Assembly: GCF_900089605.1 (NCBI RefSeq)
Contig: NZ_LT594324.1
Span: forward strand, 3,844,001 to 3,908,000
Direction of reading: 5' to 3'
From: Micromonospora narathiwatensis
GTDB taxonomy: Bacteria > Actinomycetota > Actinomycetes > Mycobacteriales > Micromonosporaceae
DNA length: 64,000 nt
Part shown: in pieces, positions 1,491 through 15,256 of the stretch
Numbering within the stretch: position 1 is the first letter of the stretch
How the letters are laid out: each line of letters opens with the position of its first letter
The notes under the pieces: generated by a model
Seen by the model: the letters and a program-made list of their open reading frames with translations, nothing else
What the model was told of the DNA's origin: nothing
Databases searched by the model: none
Made by a program: the position numbers and the translations under genes

Positions 1491-2717
1491 TCATATTCCA
1501 ACTCCCATGTGCTCAGCCAACTCCGCGATCGGCGGAGGCGGCGCACCCCGTGTGCGACGGAGCACGTCCGACATCACCTCGTGGGCGATCGGCCGGCAGC
1601 GGATCTCGGACGGGGCGAGCCGGTCGCCGCGCAGCAGCATCTCCCCCGCGTTCGCGACGTCGCCGAGCTGCGCGTAGCCGCGGGCGATGTCGAGCAGGTG
1701 ATGCGCGCGCCGCTCGGGCAGCAGGGCGTTGAACGCGGCCTCGGAGATGGCGTGGTGGATCTCCACGGCGCGGCCGCCGTCGCCCAGCTCCACGGCCGCG
1801 GCGGCCCGGTGCAGCTCCAGGTTGGTCGGGCCGAACGAGGTCCAGTAGTGGTTGTGGTCACCGCCGACCAGGATGGCCGCCTCCTCGGCGCCGGTGAGCA
1901 GGTCGTCCACGGTGGCGGAGTCGCCGATCCGGGCGGCGGCCATCGCACCCTGGAGCAGCAGCATGCCGTAGACGGAGAGCTGGCCGGGGGTGGCCTCGTT
2001 GCCGCCGCCGGGTGCGAGCCGGTTGGCGATGTTCACGTTGAGTTCGAGCGCGGGGCGGGCCCGACCCATCGCCACCAGCGCGTTGGAGACCCGGGTGGTG
2101 GCGATGCCGGCCAGCAGCTGGTCGTCGGCCCGCTGGGCGACCGCCATCGAGCGGTCGGCGGCCAGCCAGGCCAGGTCGCACTCGCCGAGCTTGCGCAGCA
2201 CCGAGGACGCGATCTGATAGACCTGCCCGAGCAGGTGGGCCGCCTCGATGGCCTGATCCCCGCGGTAGCCGGCGTCGGCGGCCTGGGCGTCGCGCAGCAG
2301 CTTCGGCAGCGCCCGGGTGAGCATCCCGTAGCGGCCGTACTGGTAGGTGAGCCAGGCATGGTTGACCGCCTTGCTCATGTCGCCCAGCGGCGGAGGGTAC
2401 GGCGCCGCGTCAAAGTACGCGCTCATCGAGTCGTACCGCTCCAGCGCGGCCCGGATCTCCTCGACCTCGACCTGGTCGATGCAGTTGAGGGCATCGGTAC
2501 GCCGCTCCGGGTCCTTGCCGAGCAGCAGTTGCACGTCGACCTGGAGGATGTCGGCGATCTCGTACAGGACGGAGAACTTGTCCAGCCGCCGCACCCCGCG
2601 CTCGACCTTGTCGACCCAGCTCTTGGACTTGCCGAGCCGGTCGGCGAAGACCTGCTGGGACATCTTGCGCCGGCTGCGCCAGTACGCCACCCGGCGGCCT
2701 ATGGGCAGTTCGTCCAT
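1491..2717 (-). CDS. XRE-family helix-turn-helix regulator with TPR-like C-terminal region
   Basis: A 408-residue protein. The start at ATG 2717 (MDELPIGRR) is chosen because the HTH begins a few residues later and a GGGAGGGATGGCGAG stretch precedes it. The HTH covers about residues 6-65 (VAYWRSRRKMSQQVFADRLG, then SWVDKVERGVRRLD). The rest is alpha-helical and rich in Ala/Leu with TPR-like helix pairs (for example AAEVRDALERY-like and LLDIARGYAQLGDV regions), typical of the large actinomycete XRE/TPR regulators. It probably controls itself and the flavoprotein downstream; its ligand is unknown. A divergent Prim-Pol-like gene starts 244 bases away. Confidence 0.85.
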   Translation of the reverse strand: MDELPIGRRVAYWRSRRKMSQQVFADRLGKSKSWVDKVERGVRRLDKFSVLYEIADILQVDVQLLLGKDPERRTDALNCIDQVEVEEIRAALERYDSMSAYFDAAPYPPPLGDMSKAVNHAWLTYQYGRYGMLTRALPKLLRDAQAADAGYRGDQAIEAAHLLGQVYQIASSVLRKLGECDLAWLAADRSMAVAQRADDQLLAGIATTRVSNALVAMGRARPALELNVNIANRLAPGGGNEATPGQLSVYGMLLLQGAMAAARIGDSATVDDLLTGAEEAAILVGGDHNHYWTSFGPTNLELHRAAAAVELGDGGRAVEIHHAISEAAFNALLPERRAHHLLDIARGYAQLGDVANAGEMLLRGDRLAPSEIRCRPIAHEVMSDVLRRTRGAPPPPIAELAEHMGVGI

Positions 2718-2851
2718 CTCGCCATCCCTCCCCCTCGCCACGTCCGGCTGATCTCCTCCGGGCGGCCGTCGCGGCGGCCCGTCGGTATCGCGGTCTCCCT
2801 CTGGTCGCACAGTCTGTACGTCAGCCTTACGGCCAGCCCTCGTAGTTTCCG

Positions 2852-2862: not shown

Positions 2863-2961
2863 TCAGCCGTTCGTCAGGTCAACGAACGTGGGTTACGGCA
2901 GTGACGGCGTTCGACGTCCGACGTGGACACCGTCCGGTCCGGGCCAGAGGGGATGGCGCAG

Positions 2962-3633
2962 ATGTGGGGGACCGTCGGACCGCGCGTGGCTCGCCTGTCG
3001 CCACTGGAACGGGTCCGGTTGCGCCGGGTCGCCGTCCGGTACGCCGTCCACGGCTGGGAGGTGACGCCCGGCGCCTGCCTGGCCAACCGCCGCTTCGTCT
3101 GCGGCCGGGCCGGCTGTCCCACCGTGGGCTGCCACCCCGCGCTGGAGAACTGGGAGCACGGGGCCAGCGCCGACCCGGCCCGGGTCGCCACCTGGTGGCG
3201 CAGCCGCCCGCACGGGGTGCTGCTGCCCACCGGGCGCTCCTTCGACGTACTGGAGGTGGCCGCCCACCTCGGCCGCCCGGTGCTGGACGCCGTCGCGTCC
3301 CACCCGGCCGGCTTCGGCGTACGCGGGCCGGTGCTGGTCACCCCCACCGGCCGCTGGATGTTCCTGGTCCGCCCGGGCGACCCGCTCCGGCCGGAGTTGG
3401 GGCACTGCTTCCACGTGATCCGGCACGGTGTCGGCTCATGGATCCCGGCGCCGCCCACCCGGCTGCCGGAGGGGACGGTGCGCTGGGCGGTCGCCCCCGA
3501 GCAGGCCCGCTGGCAGCTGCCCGATTCCTACCTGGTGCAGAACGCGCTGATCGAGGCGCTGCGGGCGGCCGGCGTCACGCTCACCTCGGACCTGCTCCCC
3601 GGCCAGCTCCCGCTGCCCCGCCGCGGCCGCTGA
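2962..3633 (+). CDS. Stand-alone Prim-Pol (bifunctional DNA primase/polymerase N-terminal-like) domain protein
   Basis: A 223-residue protein. Three in-frame ATGs exist (2923, 2953, 2962); 2962 is chosen because AGAGGGG at 2946-2952 is nine bases ahead of it and touches the 2953 ATG. The protein shows the actinobacterial Prim-Pol layout: YAVHGWEVTPGACL, a Cys cluster (FVCGRAGCPTVGCHP), WWRSRPHGVLLPTGRSFDVLEV and GRWMFLVRPG. The canonical catalytic acidic motif appears only as D-x-x-E (FDVLEV), and the usual Ser-Gly-x-His strand is replaced by GRWMFLV. There is no helicase or other replication domain. It may be a degenerate or sensory AEP-like protein rather than an active primase. Confidence 0.75.
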   Translation: MWGTVGPRVARLSPLERVRLRRVAVRYAVHGWEVTPGACLANRRFVCGRAGCPTVGCHPALENWEHGASADPARVATWWRSRPHGVLLPTGRSFDVLEVAAHLGRPVLDAVASHPAGFGVRGPVLVTPTGRWMFLVRPGDPLRPELGHCFHVIRHGVGSWIPAPPTRLPEGTVRWAVAPEQARWQLPDSYLVQNALIEALRAAGVTLTSDLLPGQLPLPRRGR

Positions 3634-3892: not shown

Positions 3893-4005
3893 CCCGTCCC
3901 CCTTTGACTCCCGGCGATCTTGCACTTACTGCCCGGATAAGTCCGGCGTTCGACGCATGTCTCCGACAGCACCTGCAAGATCGCCGGGAGCCAAAGGGGG
4001 ACGGG
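3893..4005. repeat. Long inverted repeat (32-bp arms) at the 3' end of apbE
   Basis: The arms at 3893-3924 and 3974-4005 are reverse complements with a single mismatch; 49 bases separate them. The core of each arm reads CCCGGCGATCTTGCA or its complement. The right arm and spacer form the last codons of apbE, whose stop is at 3926-3928 next to the left arm. The right side continues into repeated GACGGGGAGG units. The arrangement looks like a mobile or dispersed palindromic intergenic element, and it could also act as a transcription terminator. Confidence 0.8.
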
Positions 4006-4771
4006 GAGGGACGGGGAGGGACGGGGAGTGGGAGAGGTGGGCGTGGTCGGTGATGGTGGCGTGGTGGTGGTCGGGGAGGTGGGCCAGCCAGGTGGTGCCG
4101 GCGGGGCCCATTGCCACGGCGGCGGTGGCGTAGGCGTCGGCCAGGCCGAGATCCGGGCCGACCACGGTCACCGAACGTAGGCCCCGGGCCGGGGTGCCCT
4201 GACGTGGATCGACCACGTGGTGGCCGCGCTCGTAGACGCCGGAGGTGGCGACCGCCAGGTCGGTGCCGGCCAGCACCAGGCAGGTGGCCATCGGGTCCCA
4301 GGGGTGCCGCACCCCGATCCGCCACGCCTCGCCGGTGGCCGAACGGCCGCGTACCCGGACGTCGCCGCCGGCGTTCAGGCAGTGGTTGGGGGCGCCGGCC
4401 TCGACCAGCCGGTCCGAGGCGACCTGCGCCGACCAGCCCTTGACGTAACCGGACGGGTCCAGCCGTCCAGTGGCGTACACGTCGAAGAAGCCGTCCGTCG
4501 CGCGCCACAGGTCGGCGCAGCGTTCCAGCACCGCCCGCAGGTCGGCCGAGGCCTCGGCGAGCGGCAGTTCACCCCGGTCGAACCGGCACACCTCGCTGTC
4601 GTCGCGGTAGGTGCTGAACCGGGCGTCGACCTCGCGGAGCCAGCCGAAGGTCTGCTCGGCCAGCTCGTGCAGCGTGGCGGGGGGCAGGTCGTCGGCCAGG
4701 TCGAGGCTGATCGCCGTACCCATGATCTGCTCGACCCGGCGCAGGCCGGGCCGACGGTCGCGGGAGGCCAT
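3926..4771 (-). CDS. apbE: FAD:protein FMN transferase (ApbE)
   Basis: A 281-residue protein that attaches FMN from FAD covalently to Thr/Ser in carrier proteins outside the membrane. Visible motifs are the MGT near the start (residues 17-19), PSGYVKGWSAQ (substrate-binding K-G), LNAGGDVRVRG, VATSGVYERG followed by HHVVDPRQG, and a metal-binding LADAYATA segment near residue 215. The natural homology ends around ITDHAHLS; the last 28 or so residues (Pro-rich, then APGDLAGAVGD) are encoded by the inverted repeat at 3893-4005. It starts 5 bases after its likely substrate, the FMN-binding-domain gene, and is last in the DUF1800 operon. No signal peptide is seen, so it may act on the carrier before or during export, or the start may differ. 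Confidence 0.9.
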   Translation of the reverse strand: MASRDRRPGLRRVEQIMGTAISLDLADDLPPATLHELAEQTFGWLREVDARFSTYRDDSEVCRFDRGELPLAEASADLRAVLERCADLWRATDGFFDVYATGRLDPSGYVKGWSAQVASDRLVEAGAPNHCLNAGGDVRVRGRSATGEAWRIGVRHPWDPMATCLVLAGTDLAVATSGVYERGHHVVDPRQGTPARGLRSVTVVGPDLGLADAYATAAVAMGPAGTTWLAHLPDHHHATITDHAHLSHSPSLPVPPRPPLAPGDLAGAVGDMRRTPDLSGQ

Positions 4772-4776
4772 CGCGG

Positions 4777-5364
4777 TCAGGCCCGATCGATCGCGGCCTG
4801 CAACGACTGCCGGTACGCGTCGCTGGTGTAGGTGGCCCCGGAGACGGTGTCGAGGTTGGCGCTCTGCTTCGCGACCACCTGGCCGGAGGTGCCGCTGTAG
4901 CGGGCCTGCACGTCGTCGCTGCGCAGGCCGGACTGCCCGCCCTGGGGCAGGCCGAGCGCGGTGGCGTCGACGATCCGGCTGCCGCTGAGGGTGATCCGCA
5001 CCTGGAGCGACCCGTACTTGTAGCCGACCACCGGCCCGGTGACCGTCCGGGTGGCGGGCCTGGGTGCGCTGGTGGTGGCCTTCGGCGCGGCCGTGGTCGG
5101 CCTGGCGGCGGTGCCCGGGGTACGGCTGGCGCCGGCCCTGGGGCTCGGCCTCGCCGTCGTCGAGGCGCTCGGCGCGACCGACCCGCCCGCCGGGTCGGTC
5201 GCGCCGGGGGTGAGAGTCGGCGCCGACGGGCCGTCGGGGGCGATGGGCGCCTCGGCGACCGGCCGGTCCTGGGCGACCTGGGTGGCGCCCGGCGACCCCT
5301 TTAGCACCACCAGCGCGGTGGTGCCGGCGGCGAGGCCGGTGATCGCGAGCAGCGCGCGACGCAT
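4777..5364 (-). CDS. FMN-binding domain protein, covalently flavinylated electron carrier
   Basis: A 195-residue exported protein: N-terminal hydrophobic segment (ALLAITGLAAGTTALVVL), then a long Pro/Thr/Ala/Ser linker (about residues 35-108), then a small FMN-bind domain from GPVVGYKYGSLQVRITL. The C-terminus carries the ApbE target motif S175-G-A-T178 within DTVSGATYTS; Thr178 is the expected flavinylation site. The domain is known from Rnf/Nqr subunits and flavin-based extracytosolic electron transfer. The gene lies between the membrane reductase and ApbE, which fits an electron path from the reductase's cytoplasmic NAD(P)H to this outer carrier. Confidence 0.9.
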   Translation of the reverse strand: MRRALLAITGLAAGTTALVVLKGSPGATQVAQDRPVAEAPIAPDGPSAPTLTPGATDPAGGSVAPSASTTARPSPRAGASRTPGTAARPTTAAPKATTSAPRPATRTVTGPVVGYKYGSLQVRITLSGSRIVDATALGLPQGGQSGLRSDDVQARYSGTSGQVVAKQSANLDTVSGATYTSDAYRQSLQAAIDRA

Positions 5365-5378
5365 GGGCGGTGGCCTTT

Positions 5379-6791
5379 CTACAGCTCGAAGGTGGCGAGG
5401 TGGATCTGCCGTCGGGGGACCCCGGCCCGGCGCAGCACCCGGACGGCCTCGTCGACCAGGCCGCCCGGCCCGCAGAGATAGACGTCGCGGCGGGTCAGGT
5501 CGGGCACCAGCCGGCGCAGCCCCTCCGGGCTCATCACCTGGCGCGGCCCGGGGTCGTCACGGGAGCCGATCACGTACCACACCGAGGTGTGCCGGGTCTG
5601 GGCCAGCTCGTCCAGTTCCTGGTGCAGCAGCACGTCGGCCGGGGTCCGGGCGCGGTAGATGAGCGCGGCGCCGGGCGGCAACTCCTCCAGCATCGCCCGC
5701 AGCGGAGCGATGCCGCTGCCCCCGGCGATCAGCAGCGCCCGGTGCCGGGTCCGGTGCGCGGCGGTGAACGTGCCGGACGGGCCGACCGCCCAGGCCCGGG
5801 TGCCGGGGACCAGGTCCCGCAGCTCGGCGGTGTGCGCGCCGACCACCTTGACGGTCAGCCGCAGCCAGCGGTCGTTGCCCGCCGCGGAGACCGAGAACGG
5901 ATGCGACTGCCACCAGCAGCCGGGGTTGAGGAAGCGCCAGCGGAAGTACTGCCCGCCGAGCAGGTCGATCTGGTTGAGCCGGTGACCGGTCAGGTAGATC
6001 GAGACGGTGTCCGGGGCCTCCGCCACCACCTCGGCGACCCGCAGCCGGTGCCGCAGGTTGAAGTGCAGCGGGGCGATCACCCGGCCCCAGACCAGGGCGG
6101 CCACCACCAGCAGGTACGCGGCGATCCAGCCGGTGCGGACCGGGCCGGGATCGAAGAGCTGCGCGCCGTTGCTGAACTGGTGCCCGTAGCCGAGCAGCAG
6201 CGCCAGGTAGCTGGTCAGGTGCAGGTGGTGCCACAGCTCGTACGGCAGGCGCCGGCGGACCGCCCGGACGGCGGTGAGGCCGACCGCCACCAGGATCCCG
6301 GCGGCCACGAACGCGGAGACCATGTCCTCGTAGTCGCTGAGCAGGGAGCCGACCTCGCCGAGGACCGACTTGCGCTCCAGGCCGGCGTAGCCGACCACGA
6401 GCAGGGCGAGATGCGCGAGGACCGCCACGAGCAGGGTGGCACCGAGGTCCCGGTGCACCCGGGAGAGGCGCTCGCCGCCGACCCCGCGTTCCAGCGGGCC
6501 GAGCCGGCTCATCATCAGCACCTGGACGAGCAGCAGGTAGCCGGCGACCAGGCCGGTGATCCGGCCGGCGGCGGTGAGCAGGTCGGTGGTCCCGGTCAGC
6601 GAGCCGGCCGGGGTGTCCAGCCACCAGGGCAGCACCGCGGCGACCAGGCCAAGCCAGAACAGCCCGGCCAGGGTCCGCCGGCCGCCGGGTCCGCGGCGCG
6701 GCAGCCCCGGTGACGGGGGCACGGAACGGCCGCCGTACGGGGGGTCTGCCCCGGTACGGCGGCCGATTGGATGAATGTCCTGGTATGTCAC
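5379..6791 (-). CDS. Ferric reductase-like flavocytochrome (ferredoxin reductase-type oxidoreductase)
   Basis: A 470-residue membrane protein. GTG 6791 is chosen as start because it overlaps the DUF1501 stop as GTGA; the frame stays open further upstream but only inside DUF1501. About six membrane helices occupy the first 230 residues, with paired His in RVHRDLG, LAHLALL and ELWHHLHL for haem binding. A cytoplasmic FAD/NAD(P)H module follows: HPFSVSAAG for flavin, LLIAGGSGIAPLRAML for nucleotide, YLCGPGGLVDEAV, and a C-terminal FEL. It should move electrons from NAD(P)H across the membrane, here most likely to the downstream flavinylated carrier. Confidence 0.88.
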   Translation of the reverse strand: MTYQDIHPIGRRTGADPPYGGRSVPPSPGLPRRGPGGRRTLAGLFWLGLVAAVLPWWLDTPAGSLTGTTDLLTAAGRITGLVAGYLLLVQVLMMSRLGPLERGVGGERLSRVHRDLGATLLVAVLAHLALLVVGYAGLERKSVLGEVGSLLSDYEDMVSAFVAAGILVAVGLTAVRAVRRRLPYELWHHLHLTSYLALLLGYGHQFSNGAQLFDPGPVRTGWIAAYLLVVAALVWGRVIAPLHFNLRHRLRVAEVVAEAPDTVSIYLTGHRLNQIDLLGGQYFRWRFLNPGCWWQSHPFSVSAAGNDRWLRLTVKVVGAHTAELRDLVPGTRAWAVGPSGTFTAAHRTRHRALLIAGGSGIAPLRAMLEELPPGAALIYRARTPADVLLHQELDELAQTRHTSVWYVIGSRDDPGPRQVMSPEGLRRLVPDLTRRDVYLCGPGGLVDEAVRVLRRAGVPRRQIHLATFEL

Positions 6792-8161
6792 GCGTACAAC
6801 TTCATGGGGGTGAATTTCTGCCGGGGGAACACCTTGTCCACCTGCGCCGTCGTCAGCCCGAATCGCCCCTGAGCGACGGACCCGTAGACGTTGAACATGT
6901 TGTTGTATTCCGGTACGTCCCCGCTGTCCAGATCGTTCAATCCGCGCCACGCTCCGAGCAGGGATCCGGCGAGTTTACGCCCGCTCAGGATGGTGACAAC
7001 CCCGCCGTGCCCGTGGTCGGTGCCGCCCTGGTTCGAGGCGACCCGCCGGCCGAACTCGCTGGACACCATGATCGTCACGTCGGCGGCCCGGTCGCCGAGG
7101 TCGGTGAAGAACGCCGCCATCGCGCTGGCCAGCTCGTTGAGCCGCCGCCAGAGCTGGCCCCCGTCGCGGGTGCCCTGGTTCTCGTGGGTGTCGTAGCCGC
7201 CCATGCCGACCGTGGCGACCCGGACGTTCGCCCCACCCTTGATCAACTGCGCGAGTTGCTGGAAGGCGTGGCCGACGCCCTCGTACCGCACCCCCGCGGC
7301 GGCCTGGTACGGCTTCGCGGCGAGCCGCTGCGCGGTGGCCAGCGCCCCCATTCCCTCGACGACCGCCTCCTCGACCGGGTGGTTGATCCCGGTGAAGAGC
7401 CCCCGGATCGCCTTCTCGGTCGCGGCGCGGTATTTCTCGTCGCCGTTGAGCCGCAGGTCGCCGACGCTGTTGAGGGAGAGCGCGCCGTTCACCCCGACCA
7501 GCGAGCGGGGCAGCGTGCTGCCGATGCCGACGCTGCGGAACGCGGTGCCCTTGCCCAGGGCGTCGACCAGGCTGTCCAGCCAGCCCCGGCCGCCGGTCTC
7601 GCCGGGCAGCCCGCCCAGGTTGCAGGCGTCGGCGGCCTGGAAGTGGCTGCGGGACAGCCGGGGATCGGAGACCGCCGGGACGAAGCCGAGGCGGCCGTCC
7701 TTGAGCCACTGCTCCAGCGGGGCGAAGGCGCTGGTCAGCTTGAAGCCTCGGCCGAGCGGCAGCGAGTCGTCACCGAGCAGCAGGTCGGGGCGGACCCTGG
7801 TGAGCACCGGATCGTCGGCGGGGGCGACCAGGCTCAGTCCGTCCAGCCCGCCGTAGAGGAAGACGTGGATCAGGGTGCCGGTCCGCGTCGCGGCGAAGGA
7901 CGCCGAGGCGCTGACGAACTGGGCGGTGGCCAGGGCGGTGGCGGTCGCCGCGGCGCCGGCCACGAAGGTACGCCGGGTGACGCCCCGGCCGTCCCGCTGG
8001 GCCTCCTCCAGCTCCTCCAGCCGGCGGTACCGGTCCGCCTCGGCGGCGTTCTCGGCCGCGACGATGTCGGCCTCCGCGCGCAGCAGCGCCTCGGCCGGGT
8101 TGTCGGCCAGCCGCCGCAGGTCGGGGCATTCGGGGTGCAGGGGGTACGGGTTCACGGTCAT
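6788..8161 (-). CDS. DUF1501 family protein with twin-arginine signal
   Basis: A 457-residue protein. A 60-residue leader precedes a Tat-type signal (TRRTFVAGAAATATALA...), then the DUF1501 core: GTLIHVFLYGGLDGLS, DLLLG...LPLG, ATVGMGGYDTHENQG, and IMVSSEFGRRVASNQGGTDHGHGG with the conserved acidic/His residues that resemble sulfatase/phosphatase-fold proteins. It is exported folded. Its stop overlaps the reductase start, and its own start is 4 bases after the DUF1800 stop. GAGGAG directly abuts ATG 8161, so GTG at 8155 (spacing 6) may be the true start. The reaction is unknown. Confidence 0.88.
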   Translation of the reverse strand: MTVNPYPLHPECPDLRRLADNPAEALLRAEADIVAAENAAEADRYRRLEELEEAQRDGRGVTRRTFVAGAAATATALATAQFVSASASFAATRTGTLIHVFLYGGLDGLSLVAPADDPVLTRVRPDLLLGDDSLPLGRGFKLTSAFAPLEQWLKDGRLGFVPAVSDPRLSRSHFQAADACNLGGLPGETGGRGWLDSLVDALGKGTAFRSVGIGSTLPRSLVGVNGALSLNSVGDLRLNGDEKYRAATEKAIRGLFTGINHPVEEAVVEGMGALATAQRLAAKPYQAAAGVRYEGVGHAFQQLAQLIKGGANVRVATVGMGGYDTHENQGTRDGGQLWRRLNELASAMAAFFTDLGDRAADVTIMVSSEFGRRVASNQGGTDHGHGGVVTILSGRKLAGSLLGAWRGLNDLDSGDVPEYNNMFNVYGSVAQGRFGLTTAQVDKVFPRQKFTPMKLYA

Positions 8162-8165
8162 CTCC

Positions 8166-10175
8166 TCACCGGAGGTGGTGCTGGGGGGACGCGAGGATGG
8201 TGCGCGCGACGGCGGCCACGGCCCCGTTGAACGTGGCGTCGACCCGGGTGCTCGCCGACACCCCGGCGACGCCCAGGACCAGCGCCTTCTCCCGGGCGCT
8301 CAGCTTCTGGTGCACCAGCCGCAGCGCCAGCGCGTCCACGTACGCCCCGGCGGTCGCGGGCGGCTTCGCCACCAGCCGCTCCGGCCTCGGGTAGGTGAAC
8401 TGCTTGCGCCCGCCGGTGATCAGGTCGCCGGCCTCGTTCCAGCCGTCGACCATGGTCCCGGCCGAGGTCCACGCCACGTAGACGTCCGCGTACCCGTCCG
8501 GGGTGGGCTTGCCCATCGGGTACTGGCCCAGCTCACGTAGCTTGTCCTGGATCTGCCGCAGGCCCTGGGCGAACGGGGTGCGCTTGGCGTCGCCCTGGAA
8601 GCCCGGGGACGCGTCCGGCCCGACGCCGAGCGTCCGGTACGTGGCGACCAGGTACTCCATCGGACGGCGTACCTTCTGGCCGACGGCGGCCCAGAACTCG
8701 GAGGAGCTGAACAGGGTCGCCAGCACCGGCCTGATCTGGCCCTTGTTGGTCGAGTACGCCTTCGCCAGCCGGTCCACGAGGGACTTCGGCGGGGTGTCCG
8801 AGACGAACCGGGTGGCCAGGTTGCGGGCCACGTACCCGGCGGTCGACGGATGCAGGGCGAGGTAGCGGACGTACTGGTCGATGACCTTGTCGGCGGCCTC
8901 CGCCGAGTTGTTCGGGTGGCTGAACCCGAGGATCTTCACCTTGCCGAGGTAGTGCCGGTCGGGGAAGAACATGTACTTCCCGTCCGCCACGCCCCGGCCG
9001 GTCTGCAGCAGCGCCGCCTGCCGGACGTCCTTCTCCGTGTAGCCGCCGTCCACGCCGACCGAGTACAGCTCCAGGTTCTCCCGGGCCAGGTTCTCGTTGA
9101 CCGCGTCCTTACGGGAGTCGGTCTGGTTCAGATAGATCAGCAGCGCCGGGTGCCGGTTCGCGGCGACCAGCATGTCCGGGTAACTACCCAGGGCGTGCTT
9201 GCGGATGACGTCCCGGTCGAAGGCGTTGCGGTAGATCTCGCCGCCGTCGAACTCGGCCGCGACGTGCAGCAGGTCGTTCCAGAAGTCGACCATCACCTCG
9301 TAGAGCTGGCGGTCGGACCAGATCTGCCGGGCGATGGTGGCGTCGATCGTCTCCCGCTCCGGCTGGGCGCCCCGCTCGTTGAGCTGGTCCCGCTGGTCGC
9401 GGAGCTGCGTCGGGGTCAGCTTCAGGGTGGGCAGCTCGGCCAGCTTCAGCTCGGCCTTCGTCGGGGCGATCTTCTCCGGTTCGAGCTGCTGGCGCAGCCA
9501 GTCGTCGATGCCGAGCCGGCTGATGTCGGCCAGCACGCCGGGCGTCGCGCCGAAGGTGGCCCGGCTGGCCAGGTGCCGGATCGGGTCCTTGGCGAGGACG
9601 GTCCGTACCGTCACCTGGGTGGCCGAGGCGGCGGCCGCCGGGCTGGCGAACACCCGGCCGGTGGCCGGGGAGTTCCGCTTCAGCACCGCGCCGGCCCGGG
9701 AGCCCATGTAGCTCTCGTTCTGCTCGGTGTAGGTACGCACGGTGCTCGGCTGCTGCCCGCTCGGCCGGGCGGCGGTGCCGTCGGTCACCACCGTGCCGGT
9801 GGCGTCGCCGGCCGCCGGCTCGTCGCGGAACAGCCCGCGCACCTGGGGCGTCCTGGCCAGGGCGGCGCCTCCGGCGACCACCGCGGCGACGCCACCGAGC
9901 ACGCCGAGGGCCCCGCGCCGGCCGGTGCGGGGCGGGTTTTCATCGTCCAGGTCCGGCAGTCCCGGCCCGGAGGGTGGGGCGTGTCCGGTACGGGCGAAGC
10001 CGTCGGGCCCGATCCACTGCGGACCCGGGGCGGGCGGCCCGCCGGGGTGGCCGTGGGTGACGGCGTACGGCGAGACGGGATCCGGGTCGCGGTATCCGTC
10101 CGAGAAGGAGCGCGGAGGTCGGTCCCAGCCGTGGTCGTCCCGGGGTCGACGCGGTGGCGGGTTCAGCTCGGCCAT
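8166..10175 (-). CDS. DUF1800 family protein
   Basis: A 669-residue protein that begins the five-gene minus-strand operon. Residues 1-85 are disordered and Pro/Gly/Asp-rich; a hydrophobic stretch with paired Arg (TGRRGALGVLGGVAAVVAGG) follows and probably directs export. The DUF1800 core starts near HLASRATFGATPG and includes DWLRQQLEPE, VDFWNDLLHV, LIYLNQTDSRKDAVNENLARENLELYSVG and the C-terminal YVDALALRLVHQKLS. DUF1800 and DUF1501 genes are very commonly paired in bacteria with no established biochemistry; here the pair is joined to a flavin electron-transfer module. Confidence 0.88.
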   Translation of the reverse strand: MAELNPPPRRPRDDHGWDRPPRSFSDGYRDPDPVSPYAVTHGHPGGPPAPGPQWIGPDGFARTGHAPPSGPGLPDLDDENPPRTGRRGALGVLGGVAAVVAGGAALARTPQVRGLFRDEPAAGDATGTVVTDGTAARPSGQQPSTVRTYTEQNESYMGSRAGAVLKRNSPATGRVFASPAAAASATQVTVRTVLAKDPIRHLASRATFGATPGVLADISRLGIDDWLRQQLEPEKIAPTKAELKLAELPTLKLTPTQLRDQRDQLNERGAQPERETIDATIARQIWSDRQLYEVMVDFWNDLLHVAAEFDGGEIYRNAFDRDVIRKHALGSYPDMLVAANRHPALLIYLNQTDSRKDAVNENLARENLELYSVGVDGGYTEKDVRQAALLQTGRGVADGKYMFFPDRHYLGKVKILGFSHPNNSAEAADKVIDQYVRYLALHPSTAGYVARNLATRFVSDTPPKSLVDRLAKAYSTNKGQIRPVLATLFSSSEFWAAVGQKVRRPMEYLVATYRTLGVGPDASPGFQGDAKRTPFAQGLRQIQDKLRELGQYPMGKPTPDGYADVYVAWTSAGTMVDGWNEAGDLITGGRKQFTYPRPERLVAKPPATAGAYVDALALRLVHQKLSAREKALVLGVAGVSASTRVDATFNGAVAAVARTILASPQHHLR

Positions 10176-10940: not shown

Positions 10941-11950
10941 TCAACGCGCCGAGGGGTCCGGGTCCGCCGTCGGGCGGCGGCCGAATTCCCGGTACGCCCG
11001 GCGGAGCCGCTCGACGAGGCCGGGGCCGCCGATCGCCGCCCCCGGCGGCCCGAGCTGGCGCAGCAGCAGCTCCGGCCCGGTCGCCAGGGTGGGTGGCCGG
11101 TCGGGCAACGACACCGGGGACAGCCAGAACCGATCCACCGCGTCGGCCAGCGGGGCCGGCGGCAGCCCGCCGAGAACCCGCTCGGCGCCGGCGACGGGAG
11201 GTTGGTGGTGGCGCTCGGCGCGCTCGTCGGCTCCGGACCGGTCGACCGCCGGGCCAGCCGGTCCGCCCGCCGCCGTCCGGTCGACCGACCTGCCGGCCCG
11301 GGCGACGACCGACCCGCCGGTTGCGCCGCCGGCTGGGACGGCGGCGCCGCGCAGCGTACGCAGCCGGGCGAGCAGCTCGGCCCGGCTCCGCCCACGCCAG
11401 TGCAGGAGCTGGAACGGGTCGGCGTCGAACGCCTCGGCGAGCAGGTAGAAGCTGGCCGCCAGGTGTTTGCACGGGACCGCGAAGTCGGGGCAGCCGCAGT
11501 GCTGTGCCAGCTCGGCCACGTCGGTCGGAAAGAGCGGCGCGCCCGCCGCGACGAACAGCTCCTCCAGTTCGGCCGGCAGGTCGCCGGCGAGCAGCCGGGC
11601 ACTGAAGAACGCCTGCCCGGCCAGGTCCGCCTCGATCCGCTCCCACACCTCGTCCGGGTACGCCGCCAAGCCGATCCGCACCGGGTACGGCTTCGGCCGT
11701 GAGCCCTGCACGTCGGCGGTGACCAGCCCGGGGGCGACGTCGAGCCGAAGCACCTGTCCTCGGCGCGCGTACGCCCGGCCCCGGGTGAGCCGGGTGCCGA
11801 GCGCGAAGGACTCCAGCACCTCCAGGAACCGCCGAGACCACCAGGAACGCCCGATCGCGCCCCGGGTGCTGCGCGCCCGCAGGCCGCCCTCCACCCGCCG
11901 GGGCGGCCCGAACTCGTCGAACCGGCGGGCCGGTCGTTCGTCCGGAGTGG

Positions 11951-11954
<4 letters not shown>
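10941..11954 (-). CDS. SWIM zinc-finger protein, coupled to the SNF2 helicase
   Basis: A 337-residue protein. The GTG start at 11954 overlaps the SNF2 stop as GTGA. The SWIM finger is at residues 153-164: C153-G-C155, six residues, then C162-K-H164. The N-terminal part (RRFDEFGPPRRVEGG... GRSWWSRRFLEVLESF) is typical of the SWIM proteins that accompany bacterial SNF2 enzymes. The C-terminal half is Pro/Ala/Arg-rich and poorly conserved. SWIM domains bind DNA or protein; the pair probably works as a unit on chromosomal DNA, but the role in bacteria is not known. Confidence 0.87.

Positions 11955-15256
<3,302 letters not shown>

Follow-up and report, generated by a model that had tools for sequence, protein, structure and literature searches.

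The closest described relatives of the flavin genes considered here are the MsrQ-like flavinylation clusters, of which 1797 are reported in the main text of Meheust et al. (2021, eLife, PMC8238504). These clusters combine a PF01794 membrane cytochrome, often carrying a C-terminal NAD-binding domain, with a flavin mononucleotide (FMN)-binding carrier and apbE, and they are broadly distributed in Actinobacteria. DUF1800 and DUF1501 are common, probably exported proteins without known function. In the portion of PMC5122149 used here, the pair is reported as one operon beside bacterial chitin synthase genes, and the DUF1501 protein of those loci is said to bear a twin-arginine motif. The present analysis concerns a 64,000-nucleotide stretch of Micromonospora narathiwatensis (contig NZ_LT594324.1, positions 3,844,001 to 3,908,000; hereafter the window), in which five minus-strand genes encode DUF1800, DUF1501, a membrane reductase, an FMN carrier and ApbE. 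As far as those portions of text go, the same two DUF families occur in the chitin synthase loci and in the Micromonospora block; in the former they are accompanied by a chitin synthase and a sugar epimerase, in the window by a flavin electron module. Both modules are of known kinds, and their union is undescribed in the open-access literature searched, where no link between DUF1501 or DUF1800 and flavinylation was found (supplements and subscription journals lay outside the search); the names DUF1800 and DUF1501 are absent from the main text of PMC8238504. The locus is described below as two known modules, facultatively coupled and most simply joined once.

A five-gene block with a flavinylation module

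The gene order and spacings given in an earlier note on this DNA (gaps of 4, -4, 14 and 5 bases) were reproduced, and both the GTGA that it described as shared by DUF1501 and the reductase and the SGAT site that it placed in the FMN carrier were confirmed. The features of the block are as follows.

8166..10175, minus strand: DUF1800 protein, 669 amino acids (open reading frame (ORF) and Pfam)
6788..8161, minus strand: DUF1501 protein, 457 amino acids (ORF and Pfam)
6788..6791, minus strand: GTGA, stop of DUF1501 and start of the reductase, a 4-base overlap (sequence)
5379..6791, minus strand: membrane reductase, 470 amino acids, GTG start, with Ferric_reduct (MsrQ-like), FAD_binding_8 and NAD_binding_1 domains (Pfam)
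4777..5364, minus strand: FMN carrier, 195 amino acids, with an N-terminal MRR and hydrophobic segment, a low-complexity linker and an FMN_bind domain (Pfam, hydropathy)
4831..4842, minus strand: SGAT flavinylation motif, residues 175-178 of the FMN carrier (sequence)
3926..4771, minus strand: ApbE flavin transferase, 281 amino acids (Pfam)

The block is widely conserved among named genomes. A scan with the DUF1501 protein returned 62 loci (57 from Micromonospora, 1 from Verrucosispora and 4 from Asanoa), and DUF1800 precedes DUF1501 in every one; downstream of it the reductase is present in 61 loci, the carrier in 59 and ApbE in 56, and all of the missing genes fall at contig ends. The 4-base overlap of DUF1501 and the reductase is retained in frame in 62 of 75 loci in which the two genes are linked. 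This set holds four Asanoa contigs twice, so that the count becomes 62 of 71 distinct loci; one more locus, the 76th, is cut off short of the reductase. The overlap is missing from the Asanoa loci and from L040, L066 and L166. Because the block is conserved in the named loci and the overlap is so often kept, the five genes form an operon-like unit, most probably with translational coupling, and they would be expected to be co-transcribed.

The three flavin genes include all of the components of the MsrQ-like clusters as described in the main text of PMC8238504 (PF01794, PF00175, carrier, apbE and the [S/T]GA[S/T] motif, here SGAT), with DUF1800 and DUF1501 as two extra genes in front. The reductase matches Ferric_reduct (E 8.2e-17), FAD_binding_8 and NAD_binding_1 (E 4.8e-10), and its candidate haem ligands H113, H127, H191 and H204 never vary across an alignment of 75 rows, almost all from linked orthologues. 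The carrier matches FMN_bind (E 1.6e-07) and the transferase matches ApbE (E 1.2e-43). Electrons would pass from NAD(P)H to flavin adenine dinucleotide, through two haems across the membrane and on to FMN on the SGAT carrier, onto which ApbE would load the flavin covalently. In the MsrQ-like clusters a signal peptide is expected on the carrier, on ApbE or on both. By hydropathy, the ApbE of the window shows no N-terminal hydrophobic signal, and the carrier begins with MRR followed by a hydrophobic segment, the arginine pair being present in 69 of 70 carriers. Given these two N-termini, loading in the cytosol is conceivable, and the carrier might receive its FMN there and then be exported folded. 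The same genome holds a second, divergent reductase/FMN_bind/ApbE module (G000:C1:3665490-3667270, L230), whose reductase is 42 percent identical.

Starting from what is established, namely the gene block and its conservation, the separability of its halves, the predicted fold of DUF1501 and the redox motifs of the module, the locus is best explained as two self-contained modules: the DUF1800-DUF1501 pair, in which DUF1800 would be the dedicated helical partner of DUF1501, and a three-gene MsrQ-like flavinylation kit. The two would have been joined, most simply once, in the ancestor of a Micromonosporaceae clade and then kept as an operon-like unit. The flavin line may feed electrons to the outer side of the membrane, where the pair would act, whether to a metal site, to a substrate or to the surroundings, much as haem proteins may for the probably related PSD-DUF1552 pairs. 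Our tentative reading, narrowly preferred to co-regulation alone, is that the flavin line serves the DUF pair as a facultative helper.

Reach of the coupling and its natural dissection

Of 121 Micromonosporaceae genomes drawn evenly, 33 have an orthologous DUF1501 (at least 62 percent identity), and the reductase adjoins it in 21 of these, 8 belonging to the window's genus and assigned by coordinates and 13 others assigned by annotation of fetched stretches. Several observations weigh against a helper role for the flavin line. The reductase is not adjacent in 12 of the 33 genomes. The unlinked genomes include six of g44 (putative Dactylosporangium), in which the best reductases are located elsewhere, and six of g31 (putative Phytohabitans), in which FMN_bind had zero matches; in one of the latter, G077, DUF1800 lies beyond the contig end. 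Among linked genomes, the blocks of G001 and G038 lack ApbE (the contig of G072 ends within the carrier). Reductases of at least 47 percent identity occur in many Micromonosporaceae genera without an orthologous DUF1501. Beyond this set of orthologues, 81 other DUF1800-DUF1501 loci were opened (75 chosen actinomycete loci, 35 + 40, and 6 on plasmids of Proteobacteria and Thermus). DUF1800 stands beside DUF1501 on the same strand in all 81, and in every case the reductase, carrier and ApbE are absent from about 8 kb on each side, or less at contig ends. Among 67 other actinomycete genomes that encode DUF1501, 39 lack an FMN_bind match; in the remaining 28, no listed DUF1501 position has one on its contig closer than 50 kb. 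The kit is likewise found on its own: among 20 stretches around reductases away from the pair, read with a crude gene caller, reductase, carrier and ApbE occur together in 12, and DUF1501 or DUF1800 in none.

The 81 unlinked loci and the 39 genomes without an FMN_bind match indicate that the pair has no general need for a flavinylated carrier, and across the loci opened it has many different neighbours. The earlier note had named a lack of co-occurrence in other genera as evidence against its own reading, and outside one clade such a lack is largely what these counts reveal. The coupling of the DUF pair to the flavin module is local.

Individual loci depart from the common arrangement. In the block of G001 (L153), the DUF1800 and reductase genes are broken up across several frames, and ApbE is missing, as in a decaying or badly sequenced copy; the same genome also holds an unlinked module (L218). 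On a Thermus thermophilus plasmid (L232, 1000-3005), an IS982-family transposase breaks DUF1800, in front of the DUF1501 gene.

Flanking genes served as synteny markers for comparing the linked and unlinked states: downstream, the Prim-Pol gene, the helix-turn-helix (HTH) regulator, a 231-amino-acid ORF and NIF3, and upstream, two ORFs. Those placed in the window are as follows.

2923..3633, plus strand: Prim-Pol gene, downstream flank (Pfam)
1491..2810, minus strand: HTH regulator, downstream flank (Pfam)
10941..15256, minus strand: two ORFs, upstream flank (ORF list)
10941..12194, minus strand: the first of these, with a SWIM match below cut-off, E 0.0033 (Pfam)
11951..15256, minus strand: the second, a putative SNF2-type helicase (called from its sequence, without a Pfam scan)

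Three states were found. All five genes are present with both flanks in the window, g10 and g37, and with the downstream flank in g18. The pair without the module is the state of g31, where Prim-Pol (the HTH gene in L174) directly follows DUF1501 and no reductase, carrier or ApbE match was obtained at E 1e-3; these loci share the downstream flank alone, plus a small upstream ORF in several. In G008 and G020 it is the module that stands alone: the two flanks enclose reductase, carrier and ApbE, and a search for the pair at E 1e-3 returned nothing. DUF1501 is unmatched anywhere in the genome of G008, and G020 has a distant pair elsewhere (L256). The second and third states belong with the observations that count against a helper role. 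In addition, the block of G015 is intact without the usual flanks, and in G038 DUF1800, DUF1501, reductase and carrier lie on a short contig. The occurrence of both modules, the pair alone or the kit alone beside shared flanking genes amounts to a natural dissection of whether the pair needs electrons, and suggests that neither half strictly depends on the other.

In the reductase tree, 19 linked reductases and those of G008 and G020 form one clade (95/83), and the two putative Dactylosporangium reductases included are placed elsewhere. The DUF1501 orthologues also group as a single clade (100/100), in which linked G015 and unlinked g31 branch from an unresolved base. Since the linked reductases and the orthologous DUF1501 proteins each form one clade, the simplest account would be a single joining in the ancestor of one Micromonosporaceae clade, followed by loss in both directions; lateral transfer may be an alternative.

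The distribution bears on a second reading, in which the halves are co-regulated neighbours only: two extracytoplasmic systems that share a promoter and are of use under the same conditions, with no electrons or substrate exchanged. Either half can be found alone beside identical flanking genes, none of the 81 other pairs is linked, the module stands alone in many genera, and the hydrolase-type fold predicted for DUF1501 does not call for electrons. All of these favor co-regulation, which we regard as a serious contender. Against it, the 4-base overlap kept in most linked loci represents more cohesion than a shared promoter demands, and the intact block of G015 without its usual flanks points to a similar excess.

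Predicted properties of DUF1501 and DUF1800

The window DUF1800 protein is a strong member of PF08811 (E 1.7e-115; 387 bits against a gathering score of 26.1). It has a long low-confidence N-terminus containing R86-R87 (Tat-like) and a mostly helical confident domain from about residue 160. The DUF1501 protein is a divergent member of PF07394 (E 3.2e-18; 66.5 bits against a gathering score of 27), its match being limited to residues 301-408. It carries R63-R64, also in the manner of a twin-arginine translocation (Tat) signal, and is predicted to adopt an alkaline-phosphatase-superfamily fold from about residue 90. With a conserved arginine pair near both N-termini, the two proteins are probably exported folded via Tat.

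The predicted fold of DUF1501 is one that it has in common with the nucleotide pyrophosphatase/phosphodiesterases (NPP), sulfatases and LtaS/EptA-type transferases of the alkaline phosphatase superfamily, at about 10 percent identity; the TM-scores of the Foldseek alignments are low (about 0.33), a point against the explanation given above. The invariant residues are D107, S172, H173, D324, H326, E369, D382 and H383. Seven of them (D107, S172, D324, H326, E369, D382 and H383) are candidates for the metal ligands and the Ser/Thr/Cys nucleophile, in that their order along the chain resembles the one in the superfamily. In that superfamily a DH pair usually follows a core strand. To judge from residue order and secondary structure, the DH pair appears to be replaced in DUF1501 by an invariant E369-F370. 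DUF1501 probably acts as a hydrolase or transferase of phospho- or sulfo-esters.

In the earlier note, the two exported proteins were suggested to act as terminal electron acceptors, or substrates, of the flavin chain. The operon-like unit formed with the flavin module is in keeping with that proposal, as are the c-type haem motifs on the PSD partners of DUF1552, a family probably related to DUF1501 (see below). A terminal-acceptor role is nevertheless unsupported, because the fold of DUF1501 is phosphatase- or sulfatase-like and the c-type haem motif CxxCH occurs in none of 27 DUF1800 and none of 22 DUF1501 proteins. The window DUF1800 protein has zero cysteines, and the pair occurs in genomes without an FMN_bind match. 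The role is therefore very unlikely. What stands of the earlier note's reading is a real, conserved block, probably translationally coupled, that contains a known MsrQ-like module. The absence of CxxCH from these proteins is also a point against the helper reading.

A ferric-reductase operon can be envisaged as well, in which the module reduces an extracellular metal and DUF1501 frees metal or phosphate from organic complexes, both serving the supply of one nutrient. It would fit the Ferric_reduct domain of the reductase, the phosphatase-type fold of DUF1501 and the 153 MsrQ-like clusters that the main text of PMC8238504 reports with the VIT1 iron transporter. Opposed to it, DUF1501 has no known substrate, and no metal or phosphate uptake gene was present among the three scanned flanks (Prim-Pol, HTH and SWIM), VIT1 not having been searched for. 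We consider such an operon no likelier than terminal acceptance.

DUF1552 loci and possible electron lines

A comparison of DUF1501 with DUF1552 by hhalign gave E 1.8e-05 (probability 78 percent) over 142 columns including the Tat region, and a longer alignment of 304 columns gave E 1.3e-04 (probability 53 percent); crossed comparisons gave 0.38-0.58. The two families are probably related. DUF1552 genes sit behind genes for PSD-domain proteins with c-type haem motifs, CxxCH being present in six of six PSD proteins and retained in eight of eight rows of an enlarged alignment. As far as the portion of PMC5615132 used and loci L280-L283 and L286 go, the PSCyt/PSD-DUF1552 loci resemble the DUF pair in that a partner gene is followed by an alkaline phosphatase-like protein with an RR-type N-terminus. 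The partners differ: the PSD protein carries CxxCH haem motifs (6/6), whereas DUF1800 does not (0/27). Since DUF1552, probably a relative of DUF1501, adjoins proteins with haem motifs, a redox-assisted role for the DUF pair is conceivable.

For the partners, homology between DUF1800 and PSD5 is only suggested. The hhalign comparison was weak (E 0.0019, probability 14 percent, 63 columns), the E value having gone from 0.058 to 0.0019 with added rows. In a Pfam scan, PSD5 matched 2 of 27 DUF1800 members (best E 0.017), and unrelated families matched single DUF1800 proteins as well or better.

Five sphingomonad DUF1552-type loci (L282-L286) were opened. In two of them, on Sphingobium plasmids (L282, 6008-10154; L286, 5966-10153), genes for a PSD protein, a DUF1552-type protein, a CxxCH protein and a cytochrome b561 lie in a row, and the CxxCH protein of L282 is a cytochrome c' by Pfam. 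The other three (L283-L285) have no cytochrome behind the DUF1552 pair. This observation, the weak PSD5 alignment and the matches of unrelated families to DUF1800 count against the helper reading, and the first of them also lowers the odds of the broader idea that follows.

The DUF1800-DUF1501 and PSD-DUF1552 pairs could belong to one superfamily of exported two-part enzymes, each made of a partner protein and a subunit with the alkaline phosphatase fold, that repeatedly recruited extracytoplasmic electron lines, an extension that we hold to be rather improbable. The lines would be the partner's own c-type domains in the Planctomycetes-type loci, a CxxCH protein with cytochrome b561 in some Sphingobium and the flavinylated carrier in Micromonosporaceae. 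If true, the idea, which none of the texts used here puts forward for DUF1501 or DUF1800, would make the DUF pair a redox-assisted enzyme; should the DUF1552 link hold, such pairs would have taken up several electron lines, the flavin line of Micromonosporaceae among them. The predicted alkaline-phosphatase-type fold and the similarity to DUF1552 suggest first assays for DUF1501.

One DUF1552 locus (L280, contig 18 of G457) combines PSCyt/PSD, DUF1552 and sulfatase genes of the Planctomycetes type in a genome that is classified in the phylum of the window, and is perhaps a stray contig.

At the downstream end of the Micromonospora block, the stop of the ApbE frame falls within a dispersed inverted repeat, from which about 20 of the protein's final residues come, and the match to the family profile ends at base 4010.

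3908..3990, no strand: inverted repeat enclosing the ApbE stop, with 17-base arms at 3908-3924 and 3974-3990 separated by 49 bases (sequence)

The 15-base core of the repeat has 9 exact copies in the genome, among them three inverted pairs, the window's included, whose starts are 64-66 bases apart. With copies of its core elsewhere in the genome, some of them as inverted pairs, the repeat looks like a small dispersed element.

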